Shown here: positions 33,238 through 51,834 of the stretch, in pieces
How positions within the stretch are numbered: position 1 is the first letter of the stretch
Layout of the letters: every line of letters begins with the position of its first letter
DNA from: an uncultured Bacteroidota bacterium
GTDB lineage: Bacteria; Bacteroidota; Bacteroidia; NS11-12g; UBA9320
NCBI GenBank assembly: GCA_937124965.1
Contig: CAKZLB010000032.1
Location: 1 to 64,000 of the forward strand
Length of the DNA stretch: 64,000 nucleotides
Direction: 5' to 3'
The notes under the pieces: model-generated
The model's input: only the letters and a program-made list of their open reading frames with translations
Database searches by the model: none
What the model was told of the DNA's origin: nothing
Made by a program: the position numbers and the translations under genes

Positions 33238-33311
33238 GGGCCTATAGCTCAGTTGGTTAGAGCACCTGACTCATAATCAGGTGGTCCATGGTTCGAGTCC
33301 ATGTGGGCCCA
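33238..33311 (+). tRNA. tRNA with CAU anticodon, probably Ile2 (lysidine-modified)
   Basis: Folds as a full cloverleaf: acceptor GGGCCTA with TGGGCCC, D arm GCTC/GAGC, anticodon arm CCTGA/TCAGG with loop CTCATAA, variable TGGTC, T arm CATGG/CCATG, discriminator A. The anticodon is CAT. The loop context 'CTCATAA' and the TAGCTCAG..GGTTAGAGC body resemble tRNA-Ile2 of other bacteria, where C34 becomes lysidine so the tRNA reads AUA; elongator Met cannot be ruled out. The 3' part from the anticodon arm is contained in the 49-bp repeat that also occurs at 43,757, so it is the integration site. Confidence 0.85.
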
Positions 33312-33312
33312 C
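33264..33312 (+). repeat. attL: left 49-bp core repeat of the element
   Basis: Identical base for base to 43757-43805. It covers the anticodon stem-loop, T arm and acceptor 3' strand of the tRNA gene, so insertion here restores the tRNA. Confidence 0.9.
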
Positions 33313-33323
33313 CCAATGAAGAC

Positions 33324-33354
33324 AAGGGTTTCGAGAAATCGAAGCCCTTTTTTG
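33324..33354 (+). terminator. Terminator after the tRNA, supplied by the element
   Basis: An 11-bp stem (AAGGGTTTCGA with TCGAAGCCCTT, one G-T pair) with a GAAA loop and a T-run begins 12 bases after the tRNA core. It lies inside the element, replacing the chromosomal one that is now past attR. Confidence 0.85.
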
Positions 33355-33363
33355 TTTTGTCAT

Positions 33364-33382
33364 TGTAACACATTTGTAACAC
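33364..33382 (+). repeat. Putative integrase arm sites, left end
   Basis: TGTAACAC occurs twice, starting at 33364 and 33375 (11 bp apart), 52 bases from attL. The same motif with the same spacing is found three times near attR (43612, 43623, 43634). Paired occurrence at both ends points to arm-type binding sites for the element's tyrosine recombinase. Confidence 0.65.
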
Positions 33383-33497
33383 TATCCCACTTTTAGTCTT
33401 GTAAAAACTTACTATCAAAGTTCCGCATGGTACAATTATCGTTTTATTCATCAAACACAGAATTGGAAATGCTTATTTTTGAGAAAAAGACCTAAAC

Positions 33498-34334
33498 ATG
33501 AACTTTTTTGCTCTAGACGTTGAAACTGCCAACGCAGACTATTCTAGCATTTGCCAAATCGGAATCGCTCAATTCAAAAATGGCGAAATCGTACAAACGT
33601 GGACACAACTAATAAACCCTGAAACCCATTTCGATTTTATGAATACGATGATTCACGGTATTGGGGAAATAGATGTCGAAGGATGTCCAACATTTAAAGA
33701 ATATATTTTACAGATTGAGCATATTCTAAAAGGTGAATTTATAGTTCACCACATGCCTTTTGACAGAACCGCAATAAATAGAGCTTGCATTAAAGCTGAA
33801 ATCCCTTTACTTGAAGTTGAATGGATTGATACTGCAAGAGTTGCGAGACGTACATGGAATCAATTTGCTAAAAAAGGCTATGGACTGTCAAATCTTGCCA
33901 ATTTCTTAAATATCCAATTTGAACATCATGATGCTTTAGAAGATGCAATGACAGCAGGAAAAATATTTATAAAAGCATTAGAAGTTAATCCTAACCCATT
34001 AAAGGAAGTACAACGACTTTCGACCTACAATCCACCTATTCGATTGGAAGGAGTTGCAGACGGTGTACTTTCTGGAGAATTAGTTGTATTTACGGGATCA
34101 TTGACATCACCAAGAAAAGAAATGGCCGAAATGGCTGCATCTTTTGGCTGCGATGTAAAAGACAGGTTAACGCTTAAAACAACAATTCTTGTGGTTGGCC
34201 TACAAGATCAAAACAAACTAAACGGTCACGTCAAAAGCAGTAAACACCGTAAAGCAGAAGAACTTATTAAAAATGGTCACCCAATTAGAATTATGTCCGA
34301 AACTGACTTCTTAGAATTAGCAAACTACTTATAA
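33498..34334 (+). CDS. DnaQ-like 3'-5' exonuclease fused to a BRCT domain
   Basis: 278 residues. Residues 1-165 form a DEDDh exonuclease of the DNA polymerase III epsilon family: FFALDVETANADY (first Asp-Glu), FIVHHMPFDRTAI (second Asp), and HHDALEDAMTAG (His and last Asp). Residues 185-275 are a BRCT domain (GELVVFTGSLTSPRKEMAEMAASFGCDVKD, ending in the IRIMSETDFLELA strand-helix). The fusion is not rare in Bacteroidota and suggests a role in DNA repair or replication. It is the first gene inside the element after attL, and its stop overlaps the next start by one base (TAATG), so it is coupled to the membrane-protein gene. Confidence 0.85.
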   Translation: MNFFALDVETANADYSSICQIGIAQFKNGEIVQTWTQLINPETHFDFMNTMIHGIGEIDVEGCPTFKEYILQIEHILKGEFIVHHMPFDRTAINRACIKAEIPLLEVEWIDTARVARRTWNQFAKKGYGLSNLANFLNIQFEHHDALEDAMTAGKIFIKALEVNPNPLKEVQRLSTYNPPIRLEGVADGVLSGELVVFTGSLTSPRKEMAEMAASFGCDVKDRLTLKTTILVVGLQDQNKLNGHVKSSKHRKAEELIKNGHPIRIMSETDFLELANYL

Positions 34335-35038
34335 TGCAAAATATATTTTCATCTGTCTCAACAATATTAATAAGTGACGTAATCGCCTTCCTTGCTTTAA
34401 TCGTTGGGACAATAAGTTTGTGTTGGCAAATTATTGAGAAAAGAAAAAAAAACGAAGACACCTTAACAAACTTGCAGTTTGATACTATTATTCAACTAAT
34501 AAATCACTTAAATAGTAATATCATAGAAATGAAGCTACGGAATGAGGACGGCGTAGGAACAATGTGCGGGGTTACTTTATTAAATTTACCAACCCCACAA
34601 TTTATTGATGAGCACAATAACTATTGCTCTGTACCTGTCTTCTTAGGAGCAAATTCTAACCAGCTCGGAGATCTGAGGAAATTCATCAATAATCCTAAAC
34701 TACCAAAGGAAATAAGTATTGCCCTATCAGAATTATACCTTAACCGAACAACGGTCATTAATGATCGTCTTTGCGCACCTAAGTCCATAATTTTAGAAAC
34801 AAATATTTTTGAACCAGTAACCTTTGATCCTGTTGTTCTAGGAACTTTCGGTTATCGGAAAACAAAGTTTACAAACTACATCGACTTCTACAATACATGT
34901 GATAGCTTGGTACAATCTTTAGTAAATTGGTGTGACAAAAACAAGATACACAACCTTAATATCGTTCCACTTGTTGTCGGTCAATTTGTACTTGACCCAA
35001 AAAAAATATCTTACATAGACAGCAACTCCAAGAACTAA
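34334..35038 (+). CDS. Hypothetical single-pass membrane protein
   Basis: 234 residues with one N-terminal membrane helix (VIAFLALIVGTISLCWQII, near 15-34) followed by a basic patch and a soluble domain; the Lys/Arg after the helix predicts the domain is cytoplasmic. No family recognised. Its start overlaps the exonuclease-BRCT stop by one base, so translation is coupled and the pair may be a two-gene unit on the element, possibly a defence or maintenance pair; this is inference. Confidence 0.6.
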   Translation: MQNIFSSVSTILISDVIAFLALIVGTISLCWQIIEKRKKNEDTLTNLQFDTIIQLINHLNSNIIEMKLRNEDGVGTMCGVTLLNLPTPQFIDEHNNYCSVPVFLGANSNQLGDLRKFINNPKLPKEISIALSELYLNRTTVINDRLCAPKSIILETNIFEPVTFDPVVLGTFGYRKTKFTNYIDFYNTCDSLVQSLVNWCDKNKIHNLNIVPLVVGQFVLDPKKISYIDSNSKN

Positions 35039-35452
35039 CATAAAATTTATCTAAGTCCAACACTTTTCACCTTTTTTGAAACTGGCTTCACACAAAAAGA
35101 TGATAGCTCCGTTGTAATGGTCTTAGATCAGACATTTCCAAATGTCCCCCTACACCCTTTCCAACTTTTCAAAACTTGACATCTTACAGATAGTTGATAG
35201 CTGCGTTTCCATCATCAGGACTTGAACACTTTTAGGTATGTAGTTCAAAACTTGCACGTTCGCAAATAGATAATAGCTGCGTTACGTTATACATTTCCAC
35301 AAATCGTTTTAGACGCCAAAACATGTAAAACTTCCTAAACAACACCATTTAATACCCAACTTTCTTTATCAAGTGCTATGCACTCATTTAGTAAATTTAG
35401 AAACTACTGGACTACCCCCAAAAAAGTTATACTTGCGTTAAATTAAATATAC
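35039..35452 (+). repeat. Gene-free stretch with three copies of the ATAGCTGCGTTTCC-type repeat
   Basis: 414 bases without a gene. Three copies of a degenerate repeat of about 25 bp occur with their GATAGC cores at 35102, 35196 and 35272 (spacing 94 and 76). The rough consensus is acaaATAGatGATAGCTGCGTTTCC. An inverted pair TTGAAC/GTTCAA lies between copies 2 and 3. Three more copies follow within 1.3 kb (36121, 36175, 36568). No small gene is supported here. Confidence 0.6.
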
Positions 35453-36064
35453 ATGGTACAGTTGAGCGGTTTCGGAGAAGGTTTATTAGGATTTATTGGG
35501 TTTTGTTTTGCAATAGCATTGTTGTATATTTTGGTCAGTTTGGTAGGTCGTTTATTCAACACAACTTTTAAAACACGTGATGGATCAGAAATACAACCGT
35601 TTATGACGCCAAAGGAAATTAAAGATGAAAGGCGCAAAAACCTATTACAAAAAAAAATAGAAATACTACACGAATTTGTTCGATTGTCAGGGGTGGATGT
35701 TGAACGACGGGTTGAATTAGAAAAACGTAAAATCGAGGCAGACAGGCGTAAAGAGGAAAGAAGAAAAGAAAATAACACTCAAGCTGATCAATATGATGAG
35801 CTAAAAAAAATTTTCGATATGGATAATATATCGGGAATGTTAAGCTCTCTGCATTCTTCAACGCCTGACTTTTACTTTGATAGTAACGGTACGAGAAAGT
35901 TTTGGTCAAAGATTGTTAATCTGGACAATACGGATTATACGATAGAAAAATACAATAGCCTAAAAGATTTGTACAACCAAAAGGTAATTGACTATGCTAC
36001 CTATAAAAAATCTGCGGAACAACTTTACATCTTAGTGACTTCGAAAAAAGTAACAGATTATTGA
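35453..36064 (+). CDS. Hypothetical membrane protein with charged coil and SHOCT-like end
   Basis: 203 residues. A membrane helix near the N-terminus (GLLGFIGFCFAIALLYILVSLVG), then a long highly charged helix (VELEKRKIEADRRKEERRKE) that should be a coiled coil, and a C-terminal segment YNSLKDLYNQKVIDYATYKKSAEQL that matches the short SHOCT motif ('L..L...GiIt..Ef...K..LL'). Function unknown; SHOCT domains are thought to mediate oligomer formation. Repeats lie on both sides of it. It may be a small cassette of the element. Confidence 0.55.
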   Translation: MVQLSGFGEGLLGFIGFCFAIALLYILVSLVGRLFNTTFKTRDGSEIQPFMTPKEIKDERRKNLLQKKIEILHEFVRLSGVDVERRVELEKRKIEADRRKEERRKENNTQADQYDELKKIFDMDNISGMLSSLHSSTPDFYFDSNGTRKFWSKIVNLDNTDYTIEKYNSLKDLYNQKVIDYATYKKSAEQLYILVTSKKVTDY

Positions 36065-36215
36065 ATTAGTTTGCATCATGTTAAACAGATTCAAAAGTAT
36101 AACTGTCAAATCAAATAGATGATAGCTGCGTTTCCATGATGGATTTTTTGAATTAACACGTCACACAAATAGTTCATAGCAACGTTTCGCTTACCTGAAT
36201 TATTAACTTTGGTGT
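36065..36215 (+). repeat. Two further copies of the degenerate repeat
   Basis: Between the two small genes, copies with GATAGCTGCGTTTCC (core at 36121) and CATAGCAACGTTTCG (core at 36175) lie 54 bases apart. The second is immediately upstream of the next gene. A sixth copy (core 36568) overlaps the stop codon of that gene. Confidence 0.55.
36204..36211 (+). promoter_or_regulatory. Possible -7 promoter box for the 117-residue gene
   Basis: TAACTTTG fits TAnnTTTG and sits 5 bases before the ATG at 36216. A near-leaderless transcript would result. No clear -33 TTTG at proper spacing. Confidence 0.3.
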
Positions 36216-36569
36216 ATGAACGCATTTATTGATTTAGAAGTTAGACGTCTTGAGTTTGAACAAACGTATGCTAAAAAATGGTATTACCGCTTACCGCGTC
36301 CTACTGAGCAAACAAGCATACCACTTCAGGGGTATTATAATGTGAATTACATTTCAAGAATCTTTGAAGGTTACATTTATGACCCTGAGTTAGTACCTTT
36401 TATTGACCCTGACATGCCTTCCGCTGGACGCGTCCTAGTTAGAGGCGACAGGTATTACTCGGAAATGAAAGAAAAAGTCACAATTATTTTTTACTCTGAC
36501 GGACATTATAGTTTTTTTCTAGAAGTGATAAATTATTCAGTTCAAGAACTTTTAAACAAGATTGGATGA
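36216..36569 (+). CDS. Hypothetical protein
   Basis: 117 residues, no family recognised. Polar and beta-like with several aromatic residues (WYYRLPRPTEQTSIPLQGYYNVNY, FYSDGHYSFFLEVI); no signal peptide or membrane helix. Its stop codon TGA is part of a repeat copy (GGATGATAGCAACG), so the gene ends inside the repeat. It is flanked by repeat copies on both sides, like a small cassette. Codon use is AT-rich like the neighbours. The start ATG follows a TAnnTTTG box. Confidence 0.5.
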   Translation: MNAFIDLEVRRLEFEQTYAKKWYYRLPRPTEQTSIPLQGYYNVNYISRIFEGYIYDPELVPFIDPDMPSAGRVLVRGDRYYSEMKEKVTIIFYSDGHYSFFLEVINYSVQELLNKIG

Positions 36570-36718
36570 TAGCAACGTTTCCTAATAGCTGTTTTAAGCC
36601 TGTTTCAAGCCCTTTGACGTTTGGAGACTGGATAAGTACTAACGGAGTGCTATTAGTTGAGTGACGGTAACTTGTGGCTATTATTGAATTAACTTTCAAG
36701 CCAGAGGTATGGCTGAAG

Positions 36719-36753
36719 AGGGGTTGTACTTCATCGTCGCAGCCCCTTTTTTT
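36719..36753 (+). terminator. Intrinsic terminator
   Basis: An 8-bp stem (AGGGGTTG with CAGCCCCT, one wobble pair) followed by seven T. It would end + strand transcription from the small genes before they meet the convergent lipoprotein gene. Confidence 0.75.
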
Positions 36754-36769
36754 ATGAAGTAGAAAAACG

Positions 36770-37528
36770 TCAATTAAAGTTAATTTCACTTCTAATTATT
36801 TCCAGTTCAGGGTTAAAATAAATAAATCCTTTTAACTCTTGTTTTGCCCCTTTGAGCAACGGGTTTTCGATAGTGTATTTGTTTATCCCTTTGAAATAAA
36901 TAGGAGTGCTTCCGTCGATATTGCTATATTTTGAGATACTGTCATTGTATGCCTTTATCGTATCAGAATACTGTATAGCTAAGTCCCAAAAATCCGCAGT
37001 TACATGATTTTTTTCATAACTCTCTGTTCTTTTATAGAACCATGCAAGGGTTTTTATCCAAAATGGGTCACTCTCTTTAAAGTTGTCATAGTTGCTGATT
37101 ATTGAATCCAGCCCATCAATATTATCTGCATAACTATTTATGAAGCTCGACAACCCATAGTTTTTCTTTGCAAAGGCAATGTAGTCTCCGTTCTCCTTGT
37201 GCCCATGTTCATTCTCAAAGTTTCTCAGCTGCTTCAGCTTACTAATAGAATTATAACTCTTTGTTAGGATTTGACAGTGGTCATGGTGAGGATAAATGTA
37301 ATATTCGAATCCAAGTATTGGTTCAATAATCCCGTTTGTTTTTCTCTTAAAAGAGTCATTTAATTCTGAAACCGTTAATGTATCAACCCATTGAAATGAT
37401 TGAGACTTATAATTGATTTCTAAACCCATCGCTTTAGATTTAAGATGTGTCTCTATTTTTTCTTCAATATCACTTTGACATGAAACTAAAGTTAGTGTGG
37501 CAATAAGAAAGATTAGTTTTGTTTTCAT
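36770..37528 (-). CDS. Hypothetical lipoprotein
   Basis: 252 residues. The signal ends in IATLTLVSCQSD, a clear lipobox. The mature part has no recognised domain; it contains repeated aromatic/charged stretches (FEYYIYPHHDHCQILTKS, DPFWIKTLAWFYKRTESYEKN). Its upstream region is the iteron-like repeat block at 37557-37690, so it may be controlled or replicated from there. It is the last gene in the - strand row of the element. Confidence 0.6.
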   Translation of the reverse strand: MKTKLIFLIATLTLVSCQSDIEEKIETHLKSKAMGLEINYKSQSFQWVDTLTVSELNDSFKRKTNGIIEPILGFEYYIYPHHDHCQILTKSYNSISKLKQLRNFENEHGHKENGDYIAFAKKNYGLSSFINSYADNIDGLDSIISNYDNFKESDPFWIKTLAWFYKRTESYEKNHVTADFWDLAIQYSDTIKAYNDSISKYSNIDGSTPIYFKGINKYTIENPLLKGAKQELKGFIYFNPELEIIRSEINFN

Positions 37529-37802
37529 AGTTCGAATATAAAGAAAGGTTCTTTTTTCCCGTGCGTAGTGGTAGGAGAAAAACCTTCGTGCATAATGATA
37601 CTGAATAAATCTTCGTGCGTAGTGACTTGTGAAAAATCTTCATGCGTGCGTGTGACCTACATAAAATCTTCGTTATCGTAATCACTCAAACATTTAAATG
37701 TTGCAAAACGGTAATAGTCTTTTTTTTACGTGTACGAAAACACTTCATAAGAATTGAAACTATCAAAACAAATTTCTTTTTTACGGGTGGGAAAACACTT
37801 CG
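37529..37802. repeat. Iteron-like direct repeats (27-bp period), candidate origin
   Basis: Four direct repeats start at 37557, 37584, 37611 and 37638, exactly 27 bp apart, then a partial one at 37668. The conserved part is CTTCGTGCGTAGTG with A-rich ends (GAAAAAT). Two further repeats of the form TTACGTGTACGAAAACACTTC and TTACGGGTGGGAAAACACTTC lie 55 bp apart (starting near 37726 and 37781). Such evenly phased repeats beside a RepA-like helicase and primase-like gene resemble plasmid replication iterons. A transcription regulator array is the alternative. Confidence 0.55.
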
Positions 37803-39152
37803 TCATTGTGTAACGATTAACACTTGTTTTAACTCATTCAATCGGTTTAGAAAGGGTAAAAATGTCAAATTCCCGTTGTTTGCGTTCACGGTGTTCAGGT
37901 GTTTTTCAATGAACAGTGAACAATCATTTACTGTGCTGCATTTATTCAGTTTCACGGGCTGGGTTGGCAGTTCTAAATTTGAAAAGTAGTTTTCCAGTTC
38001 TGCAATTGAATTGCTCCAGTTTTCGGGTTGTTCCTTTTTAGGTGGTTCAATTCGTTCAGTTTTGAATACCTCAACTTTGGCCAATGGTTCACAAGAGTGG
38101 GTTTCTTTTTCGTCTTGCTTTCTGAAAAGTCGCCAATCCTGTTGAATAAGATAGTCAGCAATGTCTTTGCCTTGTTCCTTGTCCTGCTGTGGTGCTAACT
38201 TTTCAAGTAAGTCTGAAACATGGAAGTAAGTACCCTGTAAACGCTGTTGTATTTCGGTTGCTTTATTGCTCCATAACTCAAAGGCTTTGCCGTCTTTTGA
38301 TAGATCAGGGAACAAATAAACATTCCGACCTTTCAACACTTCGCATTTGTCAATATTTAAGCTGCTCAAATTGTAGACAGCCAACCAAATAAAGTTTGTC
38401 GACTGTTCAGGGAAACCAAAATACAACGTGCCATAAATAGCCGTTTTAGGTGCTTCAACCAACGCAACTGGATTGTTTGGGTATCTTCTTAATAGGTGTT
38501 CGCCAAACAAACAGGAAACCTTTGTTTCGTTCTCATTGTATGCTTTCAACCATTCAGGCAATTGCTTATTTTTTCGGGTGTGGTGCTTTTCAATTATCGA
38601 GTGCAAAAAGTCTGTGCCTTTGGTGTGGTTTTGTTCGTCAAATTGTTTTACCTGTACGGCTCTTACATTATTCTTTACATCAATGAAAGGAAAAGTATTT
38701 CCCCCTGTACGGTATCCATTTTGTACCGTACCTAAATGATACAATGATATTACCTTTTCAATCTCCTTAACTTCAAAAGGAAATGCAACCCGAGCAAGTA
38801 AGTTCTGAATAAATACATTCTTTTCATATCCTGCACGGGTACGGTTAAATACATCAAACGGAATAAATGCCCTTTTGGGCTTGCTTACAGGTCTTTTTAT
38901 TCGTTTTGGTTGCTGTGGCTTCCATTCGGTTTTGTCGCCTTGCTCCTGCTCTCGAATTGCTTTTACATAACCGTCATCATAAGGGTTCACGAAATAACCG
39001 CATTTGCTTTCACGGTCGCAACGTCCGTATTGTTCGGGCAAATATTCGCCTGTTTGAGTATCAATGTATCTTACAAAGCGAGTTTTAGCACATTCAGGGC
39101 AATGGTATTTTTTGCTGCCTTTCTCAAGGGTGTATCTGTGTTCAGTATTCAT
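37803..39152 (-). CDS. Zinc-finger/Toprim primase-like protein (DUF6371 type)
   Basis: 449 residues. The N-terminus holds a zinc finger (YHCPECAKTRFVRY, then GRCDRESKCGYF; Cys 18, 21, 45, 51) like that of CHC2 primases. The middle (NPVALVEAPKTAIYGTLYFG, then KCEVLKGRNVYLFPDLSKDG) resembles a Toprim-type nucleotidyl transferase core (E and DxxxDG). It is probably a primase-related replication protein of mobile elements of Bacteroidota. The gene is 62 bases behind the helicase gene and on the same strand. The activity is inferred from the fold only. Confidence 0.7.
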   Translation of the reverse strand: MNTEHRYTLEKGSKKYHCPECAKTRFVRYIDTQTGEYLPEQYGRCDRESKCGYFVNPYDDGYVKAIREQEQGDKTEWKPQQPKRIKRPVSKPKRAFIPFDVFNRTRAGYEKNVFIQNLLARVAFPFEVKEIEKVISLYHLGTVQNGYRTGGNTFPFIDVKNNVRAVQVKQFDEQNHTKGTDFLHSIIEKHHTRKNKQLPEWLKAYNENETKVSCLFGEHLLRRYPNNPVALVEAPKTAIYGTLYFGFPEQSTNFIWLAVYNLSSLNIDKCEVLKGRNVYLFPDLSKDGKAFELWSNKATEIQQRLQGTYFHVSDLLEKLAPQQDKEQGKDIADYLIQQDWRLFRKQDEKETHSCEPLAKVEVFKTERIEPPKKEQPENWSNSIAELENYFSNLELPTQPVKLNKCSTVNDCSLFIEKHLNTVNANNGNLTFLPFLNRLNELKQVLIVTQ

Positions 39153-39214
39153 ATTTTTACTGTTTTAGTGTTCATAGTGTTCAGGTGTGAACATCGTGAA
39201 CGGTGTGAACGCTT

Positions 39215-40285
39215 TTACATTTTCAAATACTTATTTACTGCACCTAGCGAGATGTTTAATTGCTTAGCAATATCCCTTTGAGAAAACTTCTTTTCGCTTA
39301 ACTCCTTCGCCTGTTCAATTAGACTCTCACGGTCTTTTTCTGAATACTGTTTTAAGTGTTCCCGTTCTGCTCCTAAGTCCAAAAATTCAAATGATAAAAA
39401 ATTGAAAGTCTTATCTAATTGGCAAACAACTACGTTTTCAGTATCGTAAATCATGGCTGTATTTCGTGCTTTTACCTGCTTTATGTATCTCAGGCTTTTA
39501 TCCGAATTGCTTTGCCCAATAGCAAAACAACTATCAATGAAATTGTACAACATCTTACTGCCTCCCAAATCATTCTGTGTAATTGGTCGGCTCAAATCAC
39601 GTTTTGGTGTGTGGGCAAGTGCTAAGATTGAAAGGCTATATTTGCTCTTTAATTCCTTTAAATACTTCATAAGTGGCAAAGCATCTTTTGAGCGTTCCGT
39701 CTCATTCTTTAGATAGGTAATATTGTCAATGATCAAAACTTTTGACTGTGTTTCGATTATACATTGCTCCAATGATTGATTCAGATAATTTTCAAAAGAA
39801 ATTTCTGTTGGTATTTCTGCTTCAGGGTTTATTTCAATTCGCTTAAAATTGTCGTCAAACGAATAATGATTTTCAAACACCTTTTCTGTTTCACTTTTCA
39901 CAGAATATCTTACCTCAAATTGTTTGGCAGAAAGTTCAAAATCAAAGTATAACACTGGCTGTCTTTTTGCCTCAAGGTTAAACCCTCTTATTTGCTGACC
40001 CCTGCTTATGCTATCGGCATTTTGTACCGCTAAAATTGACTTGCCTAAATTGCTATCGGCAAACAGAATACATATTTCGTTTTCGTGCCAAAATTCGCCA
40101 AATAGCATTTCGGGTATTGGTGTGGTCATAGCTTGTTCCAACCATTCGTTTGCTGTTTTGACTTTAAATAGTCCTTTATCCTGCTTTTTTGCCTCCAGTT
40201 CTCGTTGAATTTCTTGGATATGGTCTGTAAACGTTTCAGGTTGCTGCAAGTCCGCAAACTGTGGGTTTATATTATTAGCCGTCAT
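39215..40285 (-). CDS. RepA-like helicase ATPase with C-terminal HTH
   Basis: 356 residues. A RecA-fold ATPase with Walker A ADSNLGKS (residues 76-83) and Walker B KVLIIDNITYLKNE, and the arginine-rich LALAHTPKRDLSRPITQNDLGGSK that is typical for the plasmid RepA/DnaB-like hexameric helicases. The C-terminus has an HTH (KFSQRDIAKQLNISLGAVNKYLKM). The protein would open or process DNA in element replication. It overlaps the 100-residue upstream gene by 4 bases and so is in its operon. Confidence 0.75.
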   Translation of the reverse strand: MTANNINPQFADLQQPETFTDHIQEIQRELEAKKQDKGLFKVKTANEWLEQAMTTPIPEMLFGEFWHENEICILFADSNLGKSILAVQNADSISRGQQIRGFNLEAKRQPVLYFDFELSAKQFEVRYSVKSETEKVFENHYSFDDNFKRIEINPEAEIPTEISFENYLNQSLEQCIIETQSKVLIIDNITYLKNETERSKDALPLMKYLKELKSKYSLSILALAHTPKRDLSRPITQNDLGGSKMLYNFIDSCFAIGQSNSDKSLRYIKQVKARNTAMIYDTENVVVCQLDKTFNFLSFEFLDLGAEREHLKQYSEKDRESLIEQAKELSEKKFSQRDIAKQLNISLGAVNKYLKM

Positions 40286-40584
40286 ATCCCAAAAAGATTT
40301 AATTGGTTATCAAAAGGGGCTCGCTCGGGGTTGGTGGTTAAATACCACGCTTTGAAACCTGTCTCTTTACATATCTTCTTTTCTATTTCCCAAAGTCGTC
40401 CTGCCTTTTCTAAATCTCGTTTGTATCTACAAATATTTTTCTGAGGTACTCCCGTTGCAGCAGCAACCATTGAAGCGGTTGCATTATGCTGTTGTAAGTA
40501 CAGAAATATGGTTTTCAACTGGCTATTAAAATCTGTATCTTTACCCTGTCTTTTATACAAAGGGTTGTTGTTAGTGCTTTCCAT
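40282..40584 (-). CDS. Small winged-helix-like DNA-binding protein
   Basis: 100 residues. The segment DFNSQLKTIFLYLQQHNATASMVAAATGVPQKNICRYKRDLEKAGRLW has the scheme of a helix-turn-helix with a C-terminal wing (tri-helix; ATGVPQKNICRYKRDLE as recognition helix). The rest shows no domain. It lies between the Xis-like and the helicase genes with 1- and 4-base overlaps; a role as repressor or loader is inference. Confidence 0.6.
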   Translation of the reverse strand: MESTNNNPLYKRQGKDTDFNSQLKTIFLYLQQHNATASMVAAATGVPQKNICRYKRDLEKAGRLWEIEKKICKETGFKAWYLTTNPERAPFDNQLNLFGI

Positions 40585-40937
40585 TACTTCAACCCTTTTT
40601 TATTGTTAGATAAATACGCTTCCGCTTTCTGCTCTATTTCAGCGTTTGATTTCTTGCGCCCTTGTTTTAACCATTCATCAATTTCAGACTTCAGGAAATA
40701 GACTTTTTTACCACGTTTATAGTGTGGTACTTCTTGACGAGAAATTTTACTGTACCAAGTGGGTTTTTTGCGCTTCTCAGGATCGTACTTTACAAGATCG
40801 TTGAGATCAAGCCATTGTTGAGATTGTTCTGTGGGTTCTACCTTTGTTGGTTGAATTTCTGCTTGTGCTTCTTTAATCCAACGTTTAAAAATTGGTTCTA
40901 ACTTAGATAAAGGCACGTTAAAGAATACTTGTTCCAT
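40584..40937 (-). CDS. MerR/Xis-like HTH protein, probable excisionase
   Basis: 117 residues. The central segment (WLDLNDLVKYDPEKRKKPTWYSKISRQEVPHYKRGKKVYFLKSEIDEWL) is the 'helix-turn-helix domain, excisionase type' common on Bacteroidota elements: a small winged helix that directs integrase to excise. The N-terminus has ELEPIFKRWIKEA-like text. It is the first gene of the row with the helicase and starts 31 bases from an inverted repeat at 40968-40993, its likely operator. Confidence 0.65.
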   Translation of the reverse strand: MEQVFFNVPLSKLEPIFKRWIKEAQAEIQPTKVEPTEQSQQWLDLNDLVKYDPEKRKKPTWYSKISRQEVPHYKRGKKVYFLKSEIDEWLKQGRKKSNAEIEQKAEAYLSNNKKGLK

Positions 40938-40967
40938 TTGTAAATGTTTTTCTGCAAATACAAAAGG

Positions 40968-40993
40968 TGTAACCCCTCAGGTAACTGGTTACA
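40968..40993. promoter_or_regulatory. Inverted repeat, possible operator of the Xis-helicase operon
   Basis: TGTAACC (40968-40974) and GGTTACA (40987-40993) form a perfect 7-bp inverted repeat with 12 bases between, upstream of the Xis-like gene. It resembles a dimer binding site. The first arm has TGTAAC in common with the TGTAACAC arm repeats of the element ends. Confidence 0.45.
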
Positions 40994-41016
40994 GTTTAAA
41001 AGATAAACGTAAACAC

Positions 41017-42267
41017 TTAGTATTCAGGGTTATTTTCATTTAAAAAAATTATATCGTTCTCAACTTTAGTAACCGTCTGTTTGTAGTTTTTGCTAAGAAA
41101 TGGCATAATCAATTCAAGTTTATTAATCGGGTAATTGTTCATCACGTTTATACGTCTCTTAGCCTCATAATACTCAACTTTGAAATTTTTAGAACTTGTA
41201 TGGATTTTGTGTTTACTCATAAAGTCCAAAATTCTATTCAATACTGTTTTTGCATTTGAGGTCAATTTTGTCTCTTCTGCATAATAAAATATGGTTGCCC
41301 ATTCAAGTACACTAAACTGTGTTTCATTTTCAATTTTTTGAATCGCATTTGTTAAGTATGTCTTTGCAAATTGTAGTTGCGTCCCGACAAAAGGAAAAAG
41401 TTTGTTTTGCATGGCTTTGAAGTCAGGGAAGGTTTCTATTTTATTGGTTCGCGAATTGACCTTGTTATAAGTAGGAATTTCCAAACCTACTTCAATACAT
41501 TTATTTTGAACCGCCTCTATAATCGTCTCATTAAATACCATATTCTCAAAAACCTCTAACTCAAAAAGAGCTTTTTCGGTAAACTCCTTTTCAAAGTTGT
41601 TGGTTAAACCTTTAAGATAGTTCATTACCTCAATATCAGAAATCTCTGTGTTGGATTCCTCGTTTAATTTAAAAACATAGCGTTTTAAGTCTATCCATTT
41701 TGATTCGTTAGCGGCAACATTTAACTGTTCTAATGTGCCTATTATCTTGTCATCATAGTCAACTAAAATTCTATGTCTCTCAATACTCTTAATGTTGCTA
41801 ATAGTTGATAAAAATTCTAGATAGCTTGTTTTCTCATTAATATGACTTGGTTCATTTGGGATGATTGTTTGTAAATGTTCTTCGTAAAATTCAACTAGAC
41901 AAATAGCACGATACGCTTTTAACATTTCAGCAGCTTCCTGCTCCATTGCCTTGCTAAAACTATTTTGGTTCAAGTAAATTTTAGCGTCTCCAGCATCATA
42001 CCATTCTTCGACAAAATACTCAACAATTGTGTCAATCGGATTTTCTCTAAATTTTTTTAGCGCAAAGGGTGTGGAATTGATAAAATTCAAATGATCGTCA
42101 ATCACTTTTTCAAGTGCTTCTATCTGTTTCTCATCGGTTCTATACGCCTTACCAATTTGCAGTCTATAACTTATTGACGCTGCATTTATTTGCCATTTTA
42201 GCACCTCTCGAACCCTTTCTTCAAATTCTATTTGCTCAGAACACTTTGATTTTTTTTTATGGTACAT
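41017..42267 (-). CDS. Hypothetical protein on the element
   Basis: 416 residues from the ATG at 42267; the open frame goes 16 codons further but there runs over the integrase stub in another frame and is rejected. Mostly helical and charged (EIEFEERVREVLKWQINAAS, QEAAEMLKAYRAICLVEFYEEHL). No domain recognised; a distant resemblance to RteC-like regulators is too weak to use. It starts 11 bases inside the remnant of a tyrosine recombinase and follows the intact integrase gene on the same strand. Confidence 0.55.
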   Translation of the reverse strand: MYHKKKSKCSEQIEFEERVREVLKWQINAASISYRLQIGKAYRTDEKQIEALEKVIDDHLNFINSTPFALKKFRENPIDTIVEYFVEEWYDAGDAKIYLNQNSFSKAMEQEAAEMLKAYRAICLVEFYEEHLQTIIPNEPSHINEKTSYLEFLSTISNIKSIERHRILVDYDDKIIGTLEQLNVAANESKWIDLKRYVFKLNEESNTEISDIEVMNYLKGLTNNFEKEFTEKALFELEVFENMVFNETIIEAVQNKCIEVGLEIPTYNKVNSRTNKIETFPDFKAMQNKLFPFVGTQLQFAKTYLTNAIQKIENETQFSVLEWATIFYYAEETKLTSNAKTVLNRILDFMSKHKIHTSSKNFKVEYYEAKRRINVMNNYPINKLELIMPFLSKNYKQTVTKVENDIIFLNENNPEY

Positions 42268-42377
42268 ACAAATCCAGTTTAATTTTACCCGTTGCCTTCC
42301 TTTTCGCTTCATCAACTACTTTGGCATAAATCTGTGTTGTTTTTAGGTTCTTATGTCCCAACATCTTTGAAACGGTT
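42257..42377 (-). pseudogene. C-terminal remnant of a second tyrosine recombinase
   Basis: Directly after the integrase stop, in another frame, about 38 codons read ...LTKTVSKMLGHKNLKTTQIYAKVVDEAK... to a TAA at 42257. This is the box II end of a tyrosine recombinase, with GHKNLKTTQIYA holding the second His and the catalytic Tyr. The rest of the gene is missing. It may be the result of recombination between two elements. Not expressed as a functional enzyme as it lacks the catalytic Arg-His-Arg. Confidence 0.75.
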
Positions 42378-43595
42378 TTAGTTAGCTTTCTTGAATGCTA
42401 TTAGTGAATCGGTCTTATCTTGTATTTGTTCGTTCTCGAAGCTATCTAAATAGCTTTCTGTAACACTCATTGAACTATGACCAAGTAGTTCGCTTATCAT
42501 TTCTGTTTGTACCCCTGAACGCTTTAATACCGTGGCAAAAGAATGCCTAGCAAAATACGTGGTGACGGTTTTATTTATTCCTTCTGCAATTGCAATTTTT
42601 TTGACGTATTTATTTATTTTTTTTGTTAGTTGTTTTCCAGCTTTTCTCATTTGCAAAGCGTCCATCTTATTACTGAAATGTGGGAATATGTAAGCATCTT
42701 TATTTAGAGAAGGAATGGACCACTTTTTTATTATTGTTAAACTATCTGCTTTTAAAGCAACAGTTATAGTTTTTTGTTCTTTGTTACTTCTTTCGGTTTT
42801 GGCTCTTTTATAAGTGAGAATATTTCCATCAATATTCTTCCATTTAAGTAAACATAAATCTTTGACGTTCATGCCGTTGGATAAGTACATAAATATCCAG
42901 TAATCTTTTGCCATTTCCATCGCGCTATTTTTAACCGCAACATGATTGTATATTTTACCTATTTCGTCAAGTGTTAACGCTTTTTTTGTGTTCTTACTTG
43001 TTGGTATGGTGTACTTACCCTTTCCAAATGGGTATGCTGATTTATCAATTACATGTTCATTATAAACCGCTCGAAGACTTCTTAAATAAATGCCAACTGT
43101 TGAAATACTTCGACCATTATCTGTCATCCATTTTTGATATTTCTTCAAAAACTTTGGTGTTATTTCGGCAAATGTTAGTCCTGACCTAAACTCCGAAATA
43201 CTATTTTTTGCACATTCATAACTTGAAGCTGTCCCAAGCCTATTTTCAAGTTTTAATTCGTCTATGTATTTGTCAAATGCAAATGATACGCTATTAGCCG
43301 TATTTCTATTCTCTAAAAATTTCTCCTGAAAAGCATCAAATGAAAAAATATGAAGATCTTTAATTACATCATTGGCTTTATTTTCAAAATACGAAATCTT
43401 CTTATTAAATTCTTTCTGCTCGTTGGTTTTCCGTTTGCCGAATAATGTTTGCTCAAATTCGGAAGGTGTTAAGTCTATTCCAGTAGAATAGTATTTGCGT
43501 TTGCGGTTATACGTGACTTTTATCTTAACTGAACAAAGTCCATTCTTTTTTGGTCTGATCGAATCTAAATAAACTGCTGTGTGGGCTTTTAACAT
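42378..43595 (-). CDS. Tyrosine recombinase (site-specific integrase)
   Basis: 405 residues with an N-terminal arm-binding domain (HTAVYLDSIRPKKNGLCSVKIKVTYNRKRKYYSTGIDL), a SAM-like core-binding domain and the catalytic domain. Motifs: YFARHSFATVLKRSG (Arg-His), LLGHSSMSVTESYL (His and Tyr). At box I, SNGMNVKDLCLLKW has Asn where most family members have the first Arg, a variant known in Bacteroidota integrases. It is adjacent to attR and points into the element, as expected for an island integrase. The recognised site is presumably the 49-bp tRNA core. Confidence 0.88.
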   Translation of the reverse strand: MLKAHTAVYLDSIRPKKNGLCSVKIKVTYNRKRKYYSTGIDLTPSEFEQTLFGKRKTNEQKEFNKKISYFENKANDVIKDLHIFSFDAFQEKFLENRNTANSVSFAFDKYIDELKLENRLGTASSYECAKNSISEFRSGLTFAEITPKFLKKYQKWMTDNGRSISTVGIYLRSLRAVYNEHVIDKSAYPFGKGKYTIPTSKNTKKALTLDEIGKIYNHVAVKNSAMEMAKDYWIFMYLSNGMNVKDLCLLKWKNIDGNILTYKRAKTERSNKEQKTITVALKADSLTIIKKWSIPSLNKDAYIFPHFSNKMDALQMRKAGKQLTKKINKYVKKIAIAEGINKTVTTYFARHSFATVLKRSGVQTEMISELLGHSSMSVTESYLDSFENEQIQDKTDSLIAFKKAN

Positions 43596-43611
43596 ATTGA
43601 CGAATAATTAT

Positions 43612-43641
43612 TGTAACACATTTGTAACACAAATGTAACAC
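43612..43641 (+). repeat. Putative integrase arm sites, right end
   Basis: Three direct repeats of TGTAACAC at 43612, 43623 and 43634, each 11 bp apart, just upstream of the integrase start codon and 116 bases from attR. The left end has two copies with the same spacing. Probably arm sites for the integrase and possibly for autoregulation of its gene. Confidence 0.65.
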
Positions 43642-43756
43642 AACAACACAAAATAAACCGCTATTAAATCGAACCCAATAAAGCCAAAACCGTTGTAAAC
43701 AAATGGTTCAAGTACTATTATTTATAAAATGGCTATTTGTTTGTTTTGTAGTTCAG

Positions 43757-43805
43757 ACCTGACTCATAATCAGGTGGTCCATGGTTCGAGTCCATGTGGG
43801 CCCAC
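43757..43805 (+). repeat. attR: right 49-bp core repeat, tRNA 3' part
   Basis: Identical to the anticodon-arm to 3'-end part of the tRNA at 33264-33312. The 5' part of the tRNA is absent here (preceding bases differ), so this is a truncated copy and not a functional tRNA gene. Confidence 0.9.
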
Positions 43806-43920: not shown

Positions 43921-44619
43921 CTATTCCACCACAGACCGCAATAGATGTAGTTTGTAATATGCAAAATTCCTTTTAGCCAAATGGTTGATAAGATATATTG
44001 ATATCTGGTCAGATGGGACAACAGATGTTAGACGGAAGTTTGTTTGCTTACATAATGATTCATAACTATTACCCTGTATTTCTTGTAAATATTTAATGTT
44101 ATGTTCAGGACTATTACCTCGTTCATCTTTCAACCAACTTATTGGCAAATCATCTAGCCCAATAAGTATAGGTGACGACCTTAACCGAAGTAAATTAAAT
44201 AGATCAGGGTTATCATTTGCTAAATCTTTTACAATGGAGATGTCATGCTTTATAAGCTCTTCAATAAATTTTAACGTATATGAAACAAATTCGGAACCGT
44301 ATAGATTGCTAACTGCATAGTTGCTTGCTGTTTCCATAGACGGAGACAAATATGTTTGCCCGTGCTGATAATTAAAAGATTTTGTCACTTCTTGCTTTAT
44401 CATTTTGTTAAATGACACAAAGTTTTTTTGATACAGTATTGACTCACTTATATGTTCTTTGGCGAGTTCAAACACAGCAGCAGCAGTCGCTTTAACATTT
44501 AGGTCAGAAATAGGATTACAATATCCTAGACCTTTCTCTAAGATACTATCCATAAATATACTATTTGTGCCATGGTACAGAGTAACTTTTAACTTACCAT
44601 TTTCTTCTATATTTTTCAT
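43921..44619 (-). CDS. ADP-ribosyltransferase-like protein
   Basis: 232 residues. Residues 13-30 (TLYHGTNSIFMDSILEKG) match the first ART-fold motif ('yHGT...n..sI...GL') and GQTYLSPSMETASNYA (near 86-101) the second motif ('yl....A..YA'), and the end (SVVPSDQISIYL) may be the third strand with its acidic or glutamine position. These are the features of PARP/ART-type or RNA phosphotransferase-like folds. It may be a toxin of a defence system. The trio with HNH and HEPN genes is on one strand. The catalytic third residue is not certain. Confidence 0.5.
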   Translation of the reverse strand: MKNIEENGKLKVTLYHGTNSIFMDSILEKGLGYCNPISDLNVKATAAAVFELAKEHISESILYQKNFVSFNKMIKQEVTKSFNYQHGQTYLSPSMETASNYAVSNLYGSEFVSYTLKFIEELIKHDISIVKDLANDNPDLFNLLRLRSSPILIGLDDLPISWLKDERGNSPEHNIKYLQEIQGNSYESLCKQTNFRLTSVVPSDQISIYLINHLAKRNFAYYKLHLLRSVVE

Positions 44620-44700
44620 TTAGTTTGAGTTGATTTAATAATGCAACACCGACAACATAGGTGGTACCCACCTTTCTTATACAACTGGATATCCATACCT

Positions 44701-45531
44701 CTAGTTTATTACAGAATTTCTTATGACACTATTATTAATTGTAAACAAAGTTCGATGCAGTTCCCTTCGATCATCCAAATAGGACAGTTCTAATTCCAAC
44801 CCACTTAGAACCAACGGGACCATAGGCTCTAAAATTTCATCTGCCTCTTTTGACATACCGTGAATATATTTTTCATATCTCGCTTCAATGATAATAGACT
44901 CAAATGGTAGTAAGTGATTTACCTTTGGTAACTCTTCTAATTGACCAAATGTTATGTCAGCAGTTTGCATCACAGATGCATTGTATGCTGTGACTTCAGA
45001 GTTATTGTGGATAACCAAACTAAAATTCCAAGACAAACGCCAATGTGCATATAAATCTGTTCCAGCAGGAATTGGTCTTTCATAAATTTCTTTGTTATAT
45101 GCACTCCACCCTAAATTAGTTCTCCCTCCATGTGACCAAATTAAATCCACTTCTAAAAATGGAAACTTACCGTTCTCATTACTTCTGCCTCCAACAAGCT
45201 TCAACAGATTAGTTTCCTCAGCCGATTCCTTCCATTCCTGTAGGAGTCCAATTGAATAACGTTTGGAATCAACGTCTATTAGCCGTGAGTGAGTTTGGCA
45301 CAACCATATTCCATTGCTTACATGAGCTCTCTGTGCCTCTGACATATTAACGTCATACCGAGGGCCGCCTGGTGATGCTGCTGTAATATGCGCTGCAACA
45401 CCAATGCTTATAACCTCCTCATCCTTTACACCTGGACCAACCGTAGGTTGACCACAATCTGGTTTTGAACAGCGATAACCAACTCTTTTAGCAAGTATCT
45501 CTTTAGTTTTATTTGTAAAATCTGTCCTCAT
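44701..45531 (-). CDS. HNH nuclease with C-terminal beta domain
   Basis: 276 residues. Residues 1-90 form an HNH nuclease of the type fused to many defence effectors: ILAKRVGYRCSKPDCG (Cys 21, 26), GVAAHITAASPGGPRYD (His 48), AHVSNGIWLCQTHSRLID (Asn 73, Cys 78, His 81). The end after residue 105 is beta-rich (HWRLSWNFSLVIHNNSEVTAYNASV) like an Ig-like fold and may be a sensor. HNH domains of this type occur next to SAVED and other sensors of CBASS systems; none is fused here. 81 bases from the ART-like gene. Confidence 0.75.
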   Translation of the reverse strand: MRTDFTNKTKEILAKRVGYRCSKPDCGQPTVGPGVKDEEVISIGVAAHITAASPGGPRYDVNMSEAQRAHVSNGIWLCQTHSRLIDVDSKRYSIGLLQEWKESAEETNLLKLVGGRSNENGKFPFLEVDLIWSHGGRTNLGWSAYNKEIYERPIPAGTDLYAHWRLSWNFSLVIHNNSEVTAYNASVMQTADITFGQLEELPKVNHLLPFESIIIEARYEKYIHGMSKEADEILEPMVPLVLSGLELELSYLDDRRELHRTLFTINNSVIRNSVIN

Positions 45532-45749
45532 GAATTAAGTCTAGCAATCTACAACCATTTATAAATATGTACAAAAGGTAGCTATCAAACTAAATAATAA
45601 TGCGACGCCTACAGTTCGCTTGGGTGTAAATATGTTTGACCCAGAATTGGTCTGATTGAAAGATACAAGAATCTGTTTTTTCTATTTGTCAAACCCAATC
45701 TAATTGCCAGATTAGCAACATACGTTAAATATTAAGATGCGGTAATTTG

Positions 45750-46931
45750 CTAAAAAGGCAATTCCTCCTTATCATCAGATATATCAACAGGCATCCAGGG
45801 ATATTTGTCGGTATCAGTCATAAAATCACTATAAGCATAATTTAAAGACCCCCAAAACTCAACAGGCGTGGTTTCCGTCAATTCCGTATAAAATTCATCA
45901 GTATAAACATACTGATAAATCCCGTCGTCTGCGTCGATAAAACAATTTACAACTTCAATTAGCTTCCCTTGAGCTAAATTATCAGCCTCTATAAGTGCTA
46001 ATTCTTTAGAAATTTCAAAAAGAATTTCTTCAAGTTGCGTCTTTATTGTAGAATAATCTTCGGCTAAAGTGTTTCTACTAAATGTTAGTGAAATTATTTT
46101 TTTTATTTCAAGATCATCTAGATTATCTTCTTTTGCAGTAGCGATTCTCTCAGTACATGAAATTAAGAATTTTGTAAGATTTGGATAATGTAACAATAGA
46201 TTATCAGTTTTTAAATTTGTTAATCTCGTTGTATATCCTTCGTAATAGGCATCTTCCGATAATTTTGGTGGCCTGAATTCTATAAAAAGTTTTATCCAAT
46301 TTTCGTTTTTGCTTTGTTTAAAGCTAATTTTTACCTCAGGGATGCCAATAGTACTTAATTTGTTGTACCAATCGTCATCAGTATTCGTAGGTACCATATT
46401 TGGACAAGATATGTAGTCACTAAAGGTTTTTTCGATTAAAGAAAGACTATGATTAGAGTTTTGTTTCACCAGTTCAATATCACCTTTTTTTAAAGGTCTA
46501 AAATGTGCTAAGGAATTTCGGACATTGCCGATTTCGTCTAGTTTATTTTTCATAATTTCTTTCGACCCAGGAAAATACTTTTTGAAGTACTTCCAATATG
46601 TGTCGGAAGTTATAATACGAATTAATTCGCCACTTGTTAAATGTAAAAGTGGACTTGTAATTACGTAGCCCAAATATGCATAGTTTTTGTCTTGAGACAA
46701 CCTTCTTTTGGCAATTGCACCTATTGTAGAGTTTTCAGCATCGTCGGAGGTTATAGACAAATCTTTCCATTTGTCTTTATGCTCATTTTTTAAGATAATA
46801 TAAACGAACATCCGCAATAAGTTCTCCACTCTGAACAGGATATTAAGAGCTTCAAAATATTCAATTTTTAACCAATGTCCTGGTAAATCATAGATATTAT
46901 CTTTAATATGTTTTGCTCCTTTCCAATTCAC
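45750..46931 (-). CDS. HEPN/Swt1-like protein, putative RNase
   Basis: 393 residues. The helical N-terminal domain has NVRNSLAHFRPL (Arg138, then His143), which is the R-x4-H motif of HEPN RNases, in a Swt1/ApeA-like context; NLLRMFVYIILK lies before. The C-terminal part (residues 180-390) has alternating strands and helices with no recognised domain. HEPN proteins are often toxin or defence effectors cleaving RNA. It is the first of the three genes on the - strand. The start codon lies about 60 bases from a good -7 box. Confidence 0.65.
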   Translation of the reverse strand: MNWKGAKHIKDNIYDLPGHWLKIEYFEALNILFRVENLLRMFVYIILKNEHKDKWKDLSITSDDAENSTIGAIAKRRLSQDKNYAYLGYVITSPLLHLTSGELIRIITSDTYWKYFKKYFPGSKEIMKNKLDEIGNVRNSLAHFRPLKKGDIELVKQNSNHSLSLIEKTFSDYISCPNMVPTNTDDDWYNKLSTIGIPEVKISFKQSKNENWIKLFIEFRPPKLSEDAYYEGYTTRLTNLKTDNLLLHYPNLTKFLISCTERIATAKEDNLDDLEIKKIISLTFSRNTLAEDYSTIKTQLEEILFEISKELALIEADNLAQGKLIEVVNCFIDADDGIYQYVYTDEFYTELTETTPVEFWGSLNYAYSDFMTDTDKYPWMPVDISDDKEELPF

Positions 46932-46986
46932 TTTATACTTTTTTAAGTTGTTCCTAGCTGGCCCATAGGCGAATATAACGTACCTG

Positions 46987-46994
46987 CAAATGTA
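46987..46994 (-). promoter_or_regulatory. Promoter -7 box for the HEPN-HNH-ART row
   Basis: On the - strand TACATTTG matches TAnnTTTG, 55 bases before the HEPN start codon, with a TTTC (TTTG-like) 18 bases upstream. This is the best promoter in the intergenic space and suggests one transcript for the three minus-strand genes, although gaps of 218 and 81 bases could hold others. Confidence 0.45.
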
Positions 46995-47118
46995 TTACTT
47001 TGGTTTGAGCTCGAAACCCCCTGCACACAAAGTTCACCAAGAATAAACCCCCTCCTTGTTCTAAGGAGATAATAACCCCCGTCTGTTTGAGGGTTTTCCG
47101 AATTAAAATAAATCTATT

Positions 47119-47463
47119 ATGGTTACAATTTCAAATTTCAAATCAGCCATCAATGCTGAAGGTGAAGAGTTTTTCTTACTCGAACTTTTAGGTGGCGTGG
47201 AGTCTGTCCAATCCAAGGAGACTGGAAGAATCTATTTAACAGCTAGAAAGGCAACTGTTTCGTCAACGTTTAACGAAAGCACGTGTCAATCCTTAATCGG
47301 CACTAAAATGCCAGGTACAATACAACGAGTAGAGGTCGAACCTTACGCGTATGTCATTCAAGACACAGGTGAGGAGATTACGCTGTCTCATCGTTATGAG
47401 TACGATCCAAATCCCAGTCTGGAGGAAACAGTCTTAGAACGTACGAACGAACTTGTACTTTAA
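47119..47463 (+). CDS. Hypothetical phage-type protein
   Basis: 114 residues without a recognised domain; beta-rich (EFFLLELLGGVESVQSKETGRIYLTARKATVSSTF) with a C-terminal acidic tail. It leads a row of + strand genes (ATPase, DUF3871, HTH, RadC) that resembles the recombination module of mobile elements. A terminator follows it. Upstream the sequence has two small hairpins (47052-47068, 47074-47095) of unknown purpose, maybe a leader. Confidence 0.55.
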   Translation: MVTISNFKSAINAEGEEFFLLELLGGVESVQSKETGRIYLTARKATVSSTFNESTCQSLIGTKMPGTIQRVEVEPYAYVIQDTGEEITLSHRYEYDPNPSLEETVLERTNELVL

Positions 47464-47489
47464 GTAACTCCACACTGGGTACAACACGA

Positions 47490-47517
47490 AGGAGTAGCAT
47501 GTTGCTGCTCCTTTTTT
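47490..47517 (+). terminator. Intrinsic terminator after the 114-residue gene
   Basis: A 9-bp stem (GGAGTAGCA with TGCTGCTCC, one wobble) with a TGT loop and a T-run. The following AT-rich stretch (almost only A and T, 47520-47560) leads to the ATPase gene start. Confidence 0.8.
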
Positions 47518-47560
47518 ATTTCAATTAATTAAAAATATTAAAATAATAATAAATATTATT

Positions 47561-48418
47561 ATGAACTTAACCCTCAGAAAATCAAATAGAAAGCAAGCCA
47601 AAATCAAGCTTGCATTGCAAGGAGCTAGTGGATCAGGTAAAACCTATTCTGCTCTTTTACTTGCTAAAGGTATGACAGACGACTGGTCGAAAGTAGCCGT
47701 CATTGATACCGAAAATGGTAGTGCAGATCTCTATGCAGATTTAGGACAGTACAATGTACTTCCACTACATCATCCATATTCTCCAGAAATGTACATCAAA
47801 GCAATCGATGTATGTGTCGAGAATGGCATTGAAGTACTCATCATCGATTCGCTTAGTCATTGTTGGGAATATTTATTAGACGAACATTCAAAGATGGCTG
47901 GTAATTCATTTACCAATTGGAGTAAGATAACTCCTCGATTAAATGCTTTAATTCAAGCTATACTAAATGCTCCAATTCATGTTATTGCTACACTTCGAAC
48001 GAAGCAAGACTATGTGCTGTCAACTAAAAATGGAAAAGTAGTTCCAGAAAAGGTTGGACTTAAGGCTATACAGCGAGATGGAGTCGATTACGAGTTTACA
48101 ATTGTCTTAGAAATTAACGCTAAACATCAAGCAACGACTTCAAAAGACCGTACAGGACTATTTGTAAATCTTCCTGCCTTTAGTATTACCGAACAAACAG
48201 GAGCACGCATTAAAACATGGTGTGAACGAGCGAGTGCATCAACAGATAAGTCGTTTTCTGAACGAATTAATGAAACAAAGACTGTTGCAGAACTTCTGGA
48301 AATATATAACGCTCATCCTGAATGTAGACTTGAATTTAAAGATGCGTTTATAGTTCAAAAAGCACGTCTAACAAATCCTCAATCATTTAGTAAAGAAGGG
48401 AGTGTAACGAATGGATGA
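47561..48418 (+). CDS. RecA-fold ATPase, phage nucleotide-binding type (Sak4-like)
   Basis: 285 residues. Walker A GASGSGKTYSALLLAKG (residues 21-37), then VIDTENGSADLYADL, and Walker B EVLIIDSLSHCWEYLLDEH (near 91). The layout fits the AAA_24/Sak4-type ATPases that help single-strand annealing recombination in phages and related elements. The last 60 residues are helical (FSERINETKTVAELLEIYN). The end overlaps the DUF3871 gene by 8 bases, so the pair is coupled. Confidence 0.7.
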   Translation: MNLTLRKSNRKQAKIKLALQGASGSGKTYSALLLAKGMTDDWSKVAVIDTENGSADLYADLGQYNVLPLHHPYSPEMYIKAIDVCVENGIEVLIIDSLSHCWEYLLDEHSKMAGNSFTNWSKITPRLNALIQAILNAPIHVIATLRTKQDYVLSTKNGKVVPEKVGLKAIQRDGVDYEFTIVLEINAKHQATTSKDRTGLFVNLPAFSITEQTGARIKTWCERASASTDKSFSERINETKTVAELLEIYNAHPECRLEFKDAFIVQKARLTNPQSFSKEGSVTNG

Positions 48419-49340: not shown

Positions 49341-49341
49341 T

Positions 49342-49584
49342 ATGTCGGATGCACTGAAAGATTTACAAAAGTGGGTCAACGGAAACAGTTTGCTCATTGT
49401 TTCAATCAAAGGGATTCTTTCTCGGCTTAACTGCCCATTTGACGTCGAATCATTGACCGATGAGTTTGGATTGCAAAAGCATCACACCTATCAAGTCAAA
49501 AGAGTACTGATTGACAAACAGTTTCAACTCGTTTATCAGATTGGTGAAGAGCTGTATCCGTTTCGGTATTTTACGATACTATAA
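49342..49584 (+). CDS. Small hypothetical protein
   Basis: 80 residues. It begins one base after the DUF3871 stop, and shows a helix, a HTH-like middle (FDVESLTDEFGLQKHHTYQVKRVLIDKQ) and a short beta end (FQLVYQIGEELYPFRYF), a possible winged helix. It is the last gene of the ATPase-DUF3871 operon and is followed by a strong terminator. Confidence 0.55.
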   Translation: MSDALKDLQKWVNGNSLLIVSIKGILSRLNCPFDVESLTDEFGLQKHHTYQVKRVLIDKQFQLVYQIGEELYPFRYFTIL

Positions 49585-49586
49585 CT

Positions 49587-49616
49587 AGGAGGGCTTCGGC
49601 TCTCCTTTTGTTTTTT
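49587..49616 (+). terminator. Intrinsic terminator after the DUF3871 operon
   Basis: An 8-bp stem AGGAGGGC with GCTCTCCT (one wobble), a stable TTCG loop and a T-rich tail. Confidence 0.85.
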
Positions 49617-49656
49617 ACACCTTCTAACCTACAAAACAGATTAACAAACTATCACT

Positions 49657-50928: not shown

Positions 50929-51066
50929 GCCTTTGAACTAGAATTATGGAGCTTCTCGAATTATCTGAGTTACCTTATGACATTATCCAATTGAAATCAA
51001 AGCGTACATTAAGTTCATTGCGAAGGCACAAACGTCTATGATATCCAAATAACTAATCAAATAAAT

Positions 51067-51720: not shown

Positions 51721-51834
51721 TTAGTTAAAAAGTCAAATAATACACGATATTTTACATGCACTGCAATCAGTGGGTTCTATCAACACCAAAAAAATGATGT
51801 TATTTAGCTGATTACTTTAGCTTTCTAACACTGT

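Follow-up and report, generated by a model that had tools for sequence, protein, structure and literature searches.

A dispersed repeat in cassette-like order in one Bacteroidota genus: a candidate recombination site

The repeat region and its host element

The window, meaning the whole 64-kb stretch of DNA analysed here, carries a 10.5-kb element integrated at tRNA-Met, which holds all six window copies of a short repeat. The element is bounded by direct repeats of the tRNA 3' end, which identify what an earlier note on this DNA had called an island as a tRNA-integrated element. Its features are listed below, with E values from the site model built on the repeat.

33264..43805, strand not applicable: integrative element between 49-bp direct repeats of the tRNA-Met 3' end (33264-33312 and 43757-43805)
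33362..33382, + strand: 21-bp repeat, second copy at 43610-43630; differs from the ~58-bp repeat
34334..35038, + strand: gene for a 234-aa protein of no family; site 1 starts 24 nt past its end
35062..35123, + strand: site 1, core GATAGCTCCGTTG from 35102 (E 1.5e-11)
35143..35153, + strand: C-run TGTCCCCCTAC, within the window found after site 1 only
35155..35217, + strand: site 2 (E 9.0e-14)
35236..35294, + strand: site 3 (E 9.0e-11)
35453..36064, + strand: gene for a 203-aa protein of no family, flanked by sites 3 and 4
36081..36141, + strand: site 4, core starting 57 nt past the stop of the 35453 gene (E 1.4e-10)
36143..36193, + strand: site 5, core ending about 30 nt upstream of the 36216 gene start (E 1.6e-8)
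36216..36569, + strand: gene for a 117-aa protein of no family, flanked by sites 5 and 6
36527..36588, + strand: site 6, overlapping the stop codon of the 36216 gene (E 1.8e-7)
37803..40285, - strand: replication-type genes, for a DUF6371/Zn-ribbon protein and an AAA_25 helicase-like protein
40584..40937, - strand: gene for a protein with a family match to HTH_17
42378..43595, - strand: element integrase (Phage_integrase, Phage_int_SAM_5, Arm-DNA-bind_5)

All six copies were re-located on the + strand of the window sequence where the earlier note had placed them, including the last, which overlaps the 36216 gene at its stop codon (TGA at 36567-36569, core starting at 36568). Six sites and three genes alternate, all pointing the same way, and the 393-bp unit with the 36216 gene begins about 30 nt upstream of the ATG and ends at the stop codon. 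Among 395 genomes this gene gave one weak match (24.6 bits) besides itself. A search of the window with GATAGCTGCGTTTCC, allowing up to 3 mismatches, returned five matches, four of them within the repeat region, while in 100 shuffles the matches averaged 0.94 and never exceeded 4; the number of same-strand copies in the region is far above chance. On a 26-bp weight matrix, built from eight sites and so including the six window copies by construction, these copies scored 24.3-38.6 and the next best position in the 64 kb scored 12.3.

An integrase, a regulator and replication genes lie between att repeats at a tRNA, a layout like that of phage-inducible chromosomal islands (PICIs). The HTH_17 protein is probably an excisionase or regulator, and the 21-bp repeat (33362 and 43610) is probably an arm-type site of the integrase. 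Just beyond the right att repeat, positions 43921-63282 read by eye as a second island of accessory DNA, which includes type I restriction genes at about 53152-62947.

Anatomy and distribution of the site

At about 58 bp, the conserved site is longer than the motif described previously, and it terminates in ATAGCTGCGTTTC. An A/T-rich left block (around TTTCAAAACTTG) is followed by CAAATAG.TGATAGC and the terminal GCTGCGTTTC. Across 27 sites the invariant positions are -7 T, -4 C and the GTT only, after which come T (0.93) and C (0.78). A C-run (CCCCCTACC) is present 30-45 nt downstream of many copies, including those of the prophage fragment and second integrated element described below and most of those in sister genomes. 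No stable hairpin was predicted for the + strand in any of the eight sites of the genome (z -0.38 to +1.68). Three of the eight were also folded as - strand DNA, giving z of -0.20, 0.06 and -2.16, the last for the prophage copy, which alone did better than shuffles. As the control, five palindromic attC-like repeats from this genus were folded; four gave z between -2.1 and -5.3 and one short piece gave 0.06. Inverted termini were not found at the repeat copies.

The genome of the window (G000) has eight clear copies. The earlier note saw no copy outside the repeat region, which holds for the 64 kb and fails for the genome (C35:766 and C42:38422) and for two sister genomes. The uniform spread through the genome that it had named as counter-evidence was not seen, all eight clear copies being on mobile DNA: six in the tRNA-Met element, one in a second tRNA-integrated element and one in a prophage fragment. 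The 8-site model returns exactly these eight at E < 1e-6, all of them in the model by construction, and a second model with three sister sites added gave one extra weak match, on contig C55 (E 0.006).

The copy at C42:38422 is inside a 7.4-kb tRNA-integrated element (L035:5134-12633) which carries a Rep_1 gene (HUH Rep) and, as cargo, a MutH-type restriction-modification (R-M) pair. Relatives of this Rep elsewhere seemingly adjoin type I R-M genes (L233, L235; read from sequence). The copy at C35:766 is on a 3.6-kb contig, where a gene for the terminase small subunit follows about 310 bp downstream of it, and the contig end overlaps by 77 bp a contig carrying the terminase large subunit. Two near-parallel contigs, C48 and C58 (L135, L136), each encode both terminase subunits, small and large, which means that the genome holds one or more prophages besides that of C27/C35. 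The prophage copy, the C42 copy and window site 1 have a block of about 95 bp in common, including the C-run; the left block of site 1 is 90% identical to that of the prophage copy over 49 bp (blastn). Neither the lone copy of the prophage fragment nor that of C42 has an evident same-strand gene before it.

A search of five genomes of the genus at E <= 0.01 added two copies in G001 and 15 in G004, of which three (two G001, one G004) were in the search model by construction; G002 and G003 had no copy below E 0.018. The G004 copies lie at eight places, mostly in tandem with a spacing of 86-117 bp, and no gene there was seen with sites on both sides. Neighbours in G001 and G004 include genes of secreted proteins, of which some have a sorting domain, along with IS3-type transposases, ordinary genes and one Rep remnant; no terminase was noticed in the 9-18 kb stretches read. 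One site adjoins a very large, tandemly repeated secreted-protein gene (L220:5344-11062), part of which is within a 5.5-kb duplication at 480k of G004.

Across 107 genomes of the order, model R1 matched 29 at E <= 0.05; matches from beyond the genus were set aside as chance, the inspected ones mostly lacking the core. No DNA match to the repeat was obtained in phage and plasmid collections, nor was the motif string matched in the literature searched. Exact patterns were present in 61 and 3 stretches of IMG/VR and in 18 stretches among 84,980 genomes, and those with context shown look like chance, lacking the CAAAAAG context. The 14-bp and 18-bp patterns with mismatches were too loose for whole genomes. 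Judged from sequence comparison, the repeat is a dispersed family so far found in this genus only.

Joins at the core and their interpretation

When neighbourhoods of the sites were compared, related DNA was seen to start or stop at the repeat core, DNA identity switching there between loci. Identity was counted around the core in a fixed register, left versus right. The pair G4_226b/480b is alike at 58/64, 45/45 and 16/16 positions up to +6, and beyond it at 19/54 and 10/60. The reverse was observed for G4_364a/480a (left 11/64, right 51/54 and 60/60, the right side running on for 5.5 kb at 99.1%), G4_226a/480a (left 16/64, right 54/54) and G4_54b/373b (left 13/64, right 48/54). For C2/C5_418 the left flank is in common and the alignment stops at the core. 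In addition, five loci (364k, 373k, 226k and 480k of G004, and G001) contain one 94-bp unit that runs from core to core, with three unrelated left neighbours and two unrelated right neighbours.

Unrelated DNA is joined at a fixed point of the site, as in cassette systems, in about five joins, mostly from G004, a genome with many duplications, at loci found via the site itself. Random breaks in the flanks would mostly lie away from the site; the joins seen fit a cassette arrangement. Based on them, the repeat may be the recombination site of a cassette-like system with a putative enzyme, a reading to which we give slightly less than an even chance. The site would then be a double-stranded target of site-specific, cassette-like recombination on mobile DNA of the genus. 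A unit would extend from one core to the next and a gene, when present, would have the site at its 3' end; the exchange point would be the core, roughly -9 to +7 around GTTTC. We infer that the joins may be made by an enzyme and that the window genes may be exchangeable units.

The earlier note had likewise suggested a recombination element in cassette-like order distinct from attC. The core junctions in sister genomes and the lack of a hairpin in nearly all copies lend this partial support. Among the sites found, no gene-bearing unit was seen at two places.

No recombinase for the sites was found among the candidates checked. The resolvase adjoining one site is confined to G004. The TIGR02249 cut-off was exceeded in none of the five genus genomes, the best own-genome protein lying on a different contig with different repeats, and the integron-integrase search of G001 gave no match over 80 bits. 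The IntI-like integrases of the own genome, G002 and G004 have other repeats or none adjoining; no site-model match lies beside the integron-type integrases of these three genomes.

The main rival is that the copies are a dispersed intergenic repeat of REP/MITE type, whose flanks are swapped by ordinary homologous recombination or insertion sequences; we consider it a possible explanation, on balance somewhat unlikely. The copies are indeed dispersed and tandem, IS3-type transposase genes are nearby at three G004 loci, large duplications connect some loci (5.5 kb at 99.1%, 2.9 kb at 99.6%), and similar joins could arise by ordinary recombination between dispersed repeats. However, the copies across joins are just about 55-65% alike left of the core, and copies of such likeness are poor substrates for homologous recombination. 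The joins are also at one repeat edge rather than spread through the repeat, and neither inverted termini nor, in nearly all copies, a hairpin was found.

A phage packaging site (cos, or the binding site of the terminase small subunit) copied into satellites was the reading first adopted, from the position of the prophage copy upstream of the small subunit gene with the large subunit on the overlapping contig, from the block with the C-run common to prophage and integrated elements, and from the presence of the site in two such elements, one beside R-M genes. Precedents are known: P4 shares cos with P2, and according to PMC9122126 and PMC6092414 its cargo also adjoins cos, while two functional cos sites are present in the PICI EcCICFT073. 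This reading is now disfavoured because the copies of G004 and G001 adjoin secreted-protein genes, transposases and ordinary genes, and six cos copies would mean many cuts in the element. A related element in G016 that bears a terminase small subunit gene has no significant copy (10.5 bits, E 0.053), and a weak site likeness upstream of that gene was not above shuffles. We regard a packaging role as improbable. The G016 element itself (L137:7298-12867; 5.5 kb and tRNA-integrated), which besides integrase, HTH_17 and rep-like genes encodes a terminase small subunit of its own, is possibly a miniature phage satellite.

A promoter, terminator or RNA-processing element, which the earlier note had also entertained, is quite improbable and was not borne out. 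The copies are intergenic and a promoter of Bacteroidota type can be made out by eye, but most copies have no downstream same-strand gene, promoter-like matches equal the shuffled number, the terminator search found none, no stable RNA fold was predicted, and the Rfam match was to the tRNA only. Even less probable is an origin or terminus for an HUH replication protein: in C42 and at 226k of G004 the site closely follows a Rep_1 gene, or what is left of one, at its 3' end and with the same relative orientation, but ten Rep matches of 35-50% identity, found in nine other genomes among 395, have no site in their flanks, and no HUH Rep was recognised in the window element, whose replication-type genes are DUF6371 and AAA. 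An integrase arm site was rejected, other direct repeats near both ends fitting that role in both tRNA elements.

The cassette-like recombination site remains our preferred reading. A broader proposal, of non-integron cassette exchange that uses linear double-stranded sites of ~58 bp, acts within one Bacteroidota genus on its phage satellites, prophages and chromosomal islands, and lets satellites swap small cargo genes, is possible but doubtful. If a dedicated enzyme recombines the sites, mobile elements of this group would exchange small genes by a non-integron route; if the sites are merely a dispersed repeat, they still mark joining points of accessory DNA in these genomes.

Comparison with known systems

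To our knowledge, integrons have rarely been reported in the phylum Bacteroidota. PMC9024848 names the integron of Salinibacter ruber M1 as the complete one found in Bacteroidetes proper. Integron-like arrays were noticed in the genus (G000:C13:654.3k-656.9k, L250:8320-10862; G004:C4, L251:5032-8196; G002:C14, L252:4708-7120), each with a tyrosine recombinase of 377-395 aa that matches TIGR02249 below the cut-off, followed by small genes; L250 and L251 have palindromic attC-like repeats of about 150 bp.

Integron attC sites have an R' box GTTRRRY and an R'' box RYYYAAC. The present repeat resembles them in its position at the gene 3' end, the same-direction array, joins at a GTT core and a length near 59 bp, but the 27 sites do not follow these boxes, the invariant GTT being followed mostly by T and C. 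It has GTTTC in place of GTTRRRY, a folding hairpin in almost no copy and no adjoining integron integrase, and its sequence itself is conserved.

Among literature titles and the opening parts of abstracts, no report of phage satellites or PICIs in Bacteroidota was found. Judged from genes alone, the window element resembles PICI-type satellites in its integrase adjoining att, HTH_17 protein, replication-type genes, tRNA site and size of 10.5 kb, and differs in that no terminase or capsid-interference gene was detected in it. As with the cos of P4/P2 and of cos-carrying PICIs, the site is common to a prophage fragment and tRNA-integrated elements with cargo adjoining, whereas the repeat is in many copies, also by ordinary chromosomal genes in sister species. 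Finally, like REP/MITE-like repeats it is short, intergenic, present in many copies and genus-limited, but it has no inverted ends and unrelated DNA is joined at one edge.
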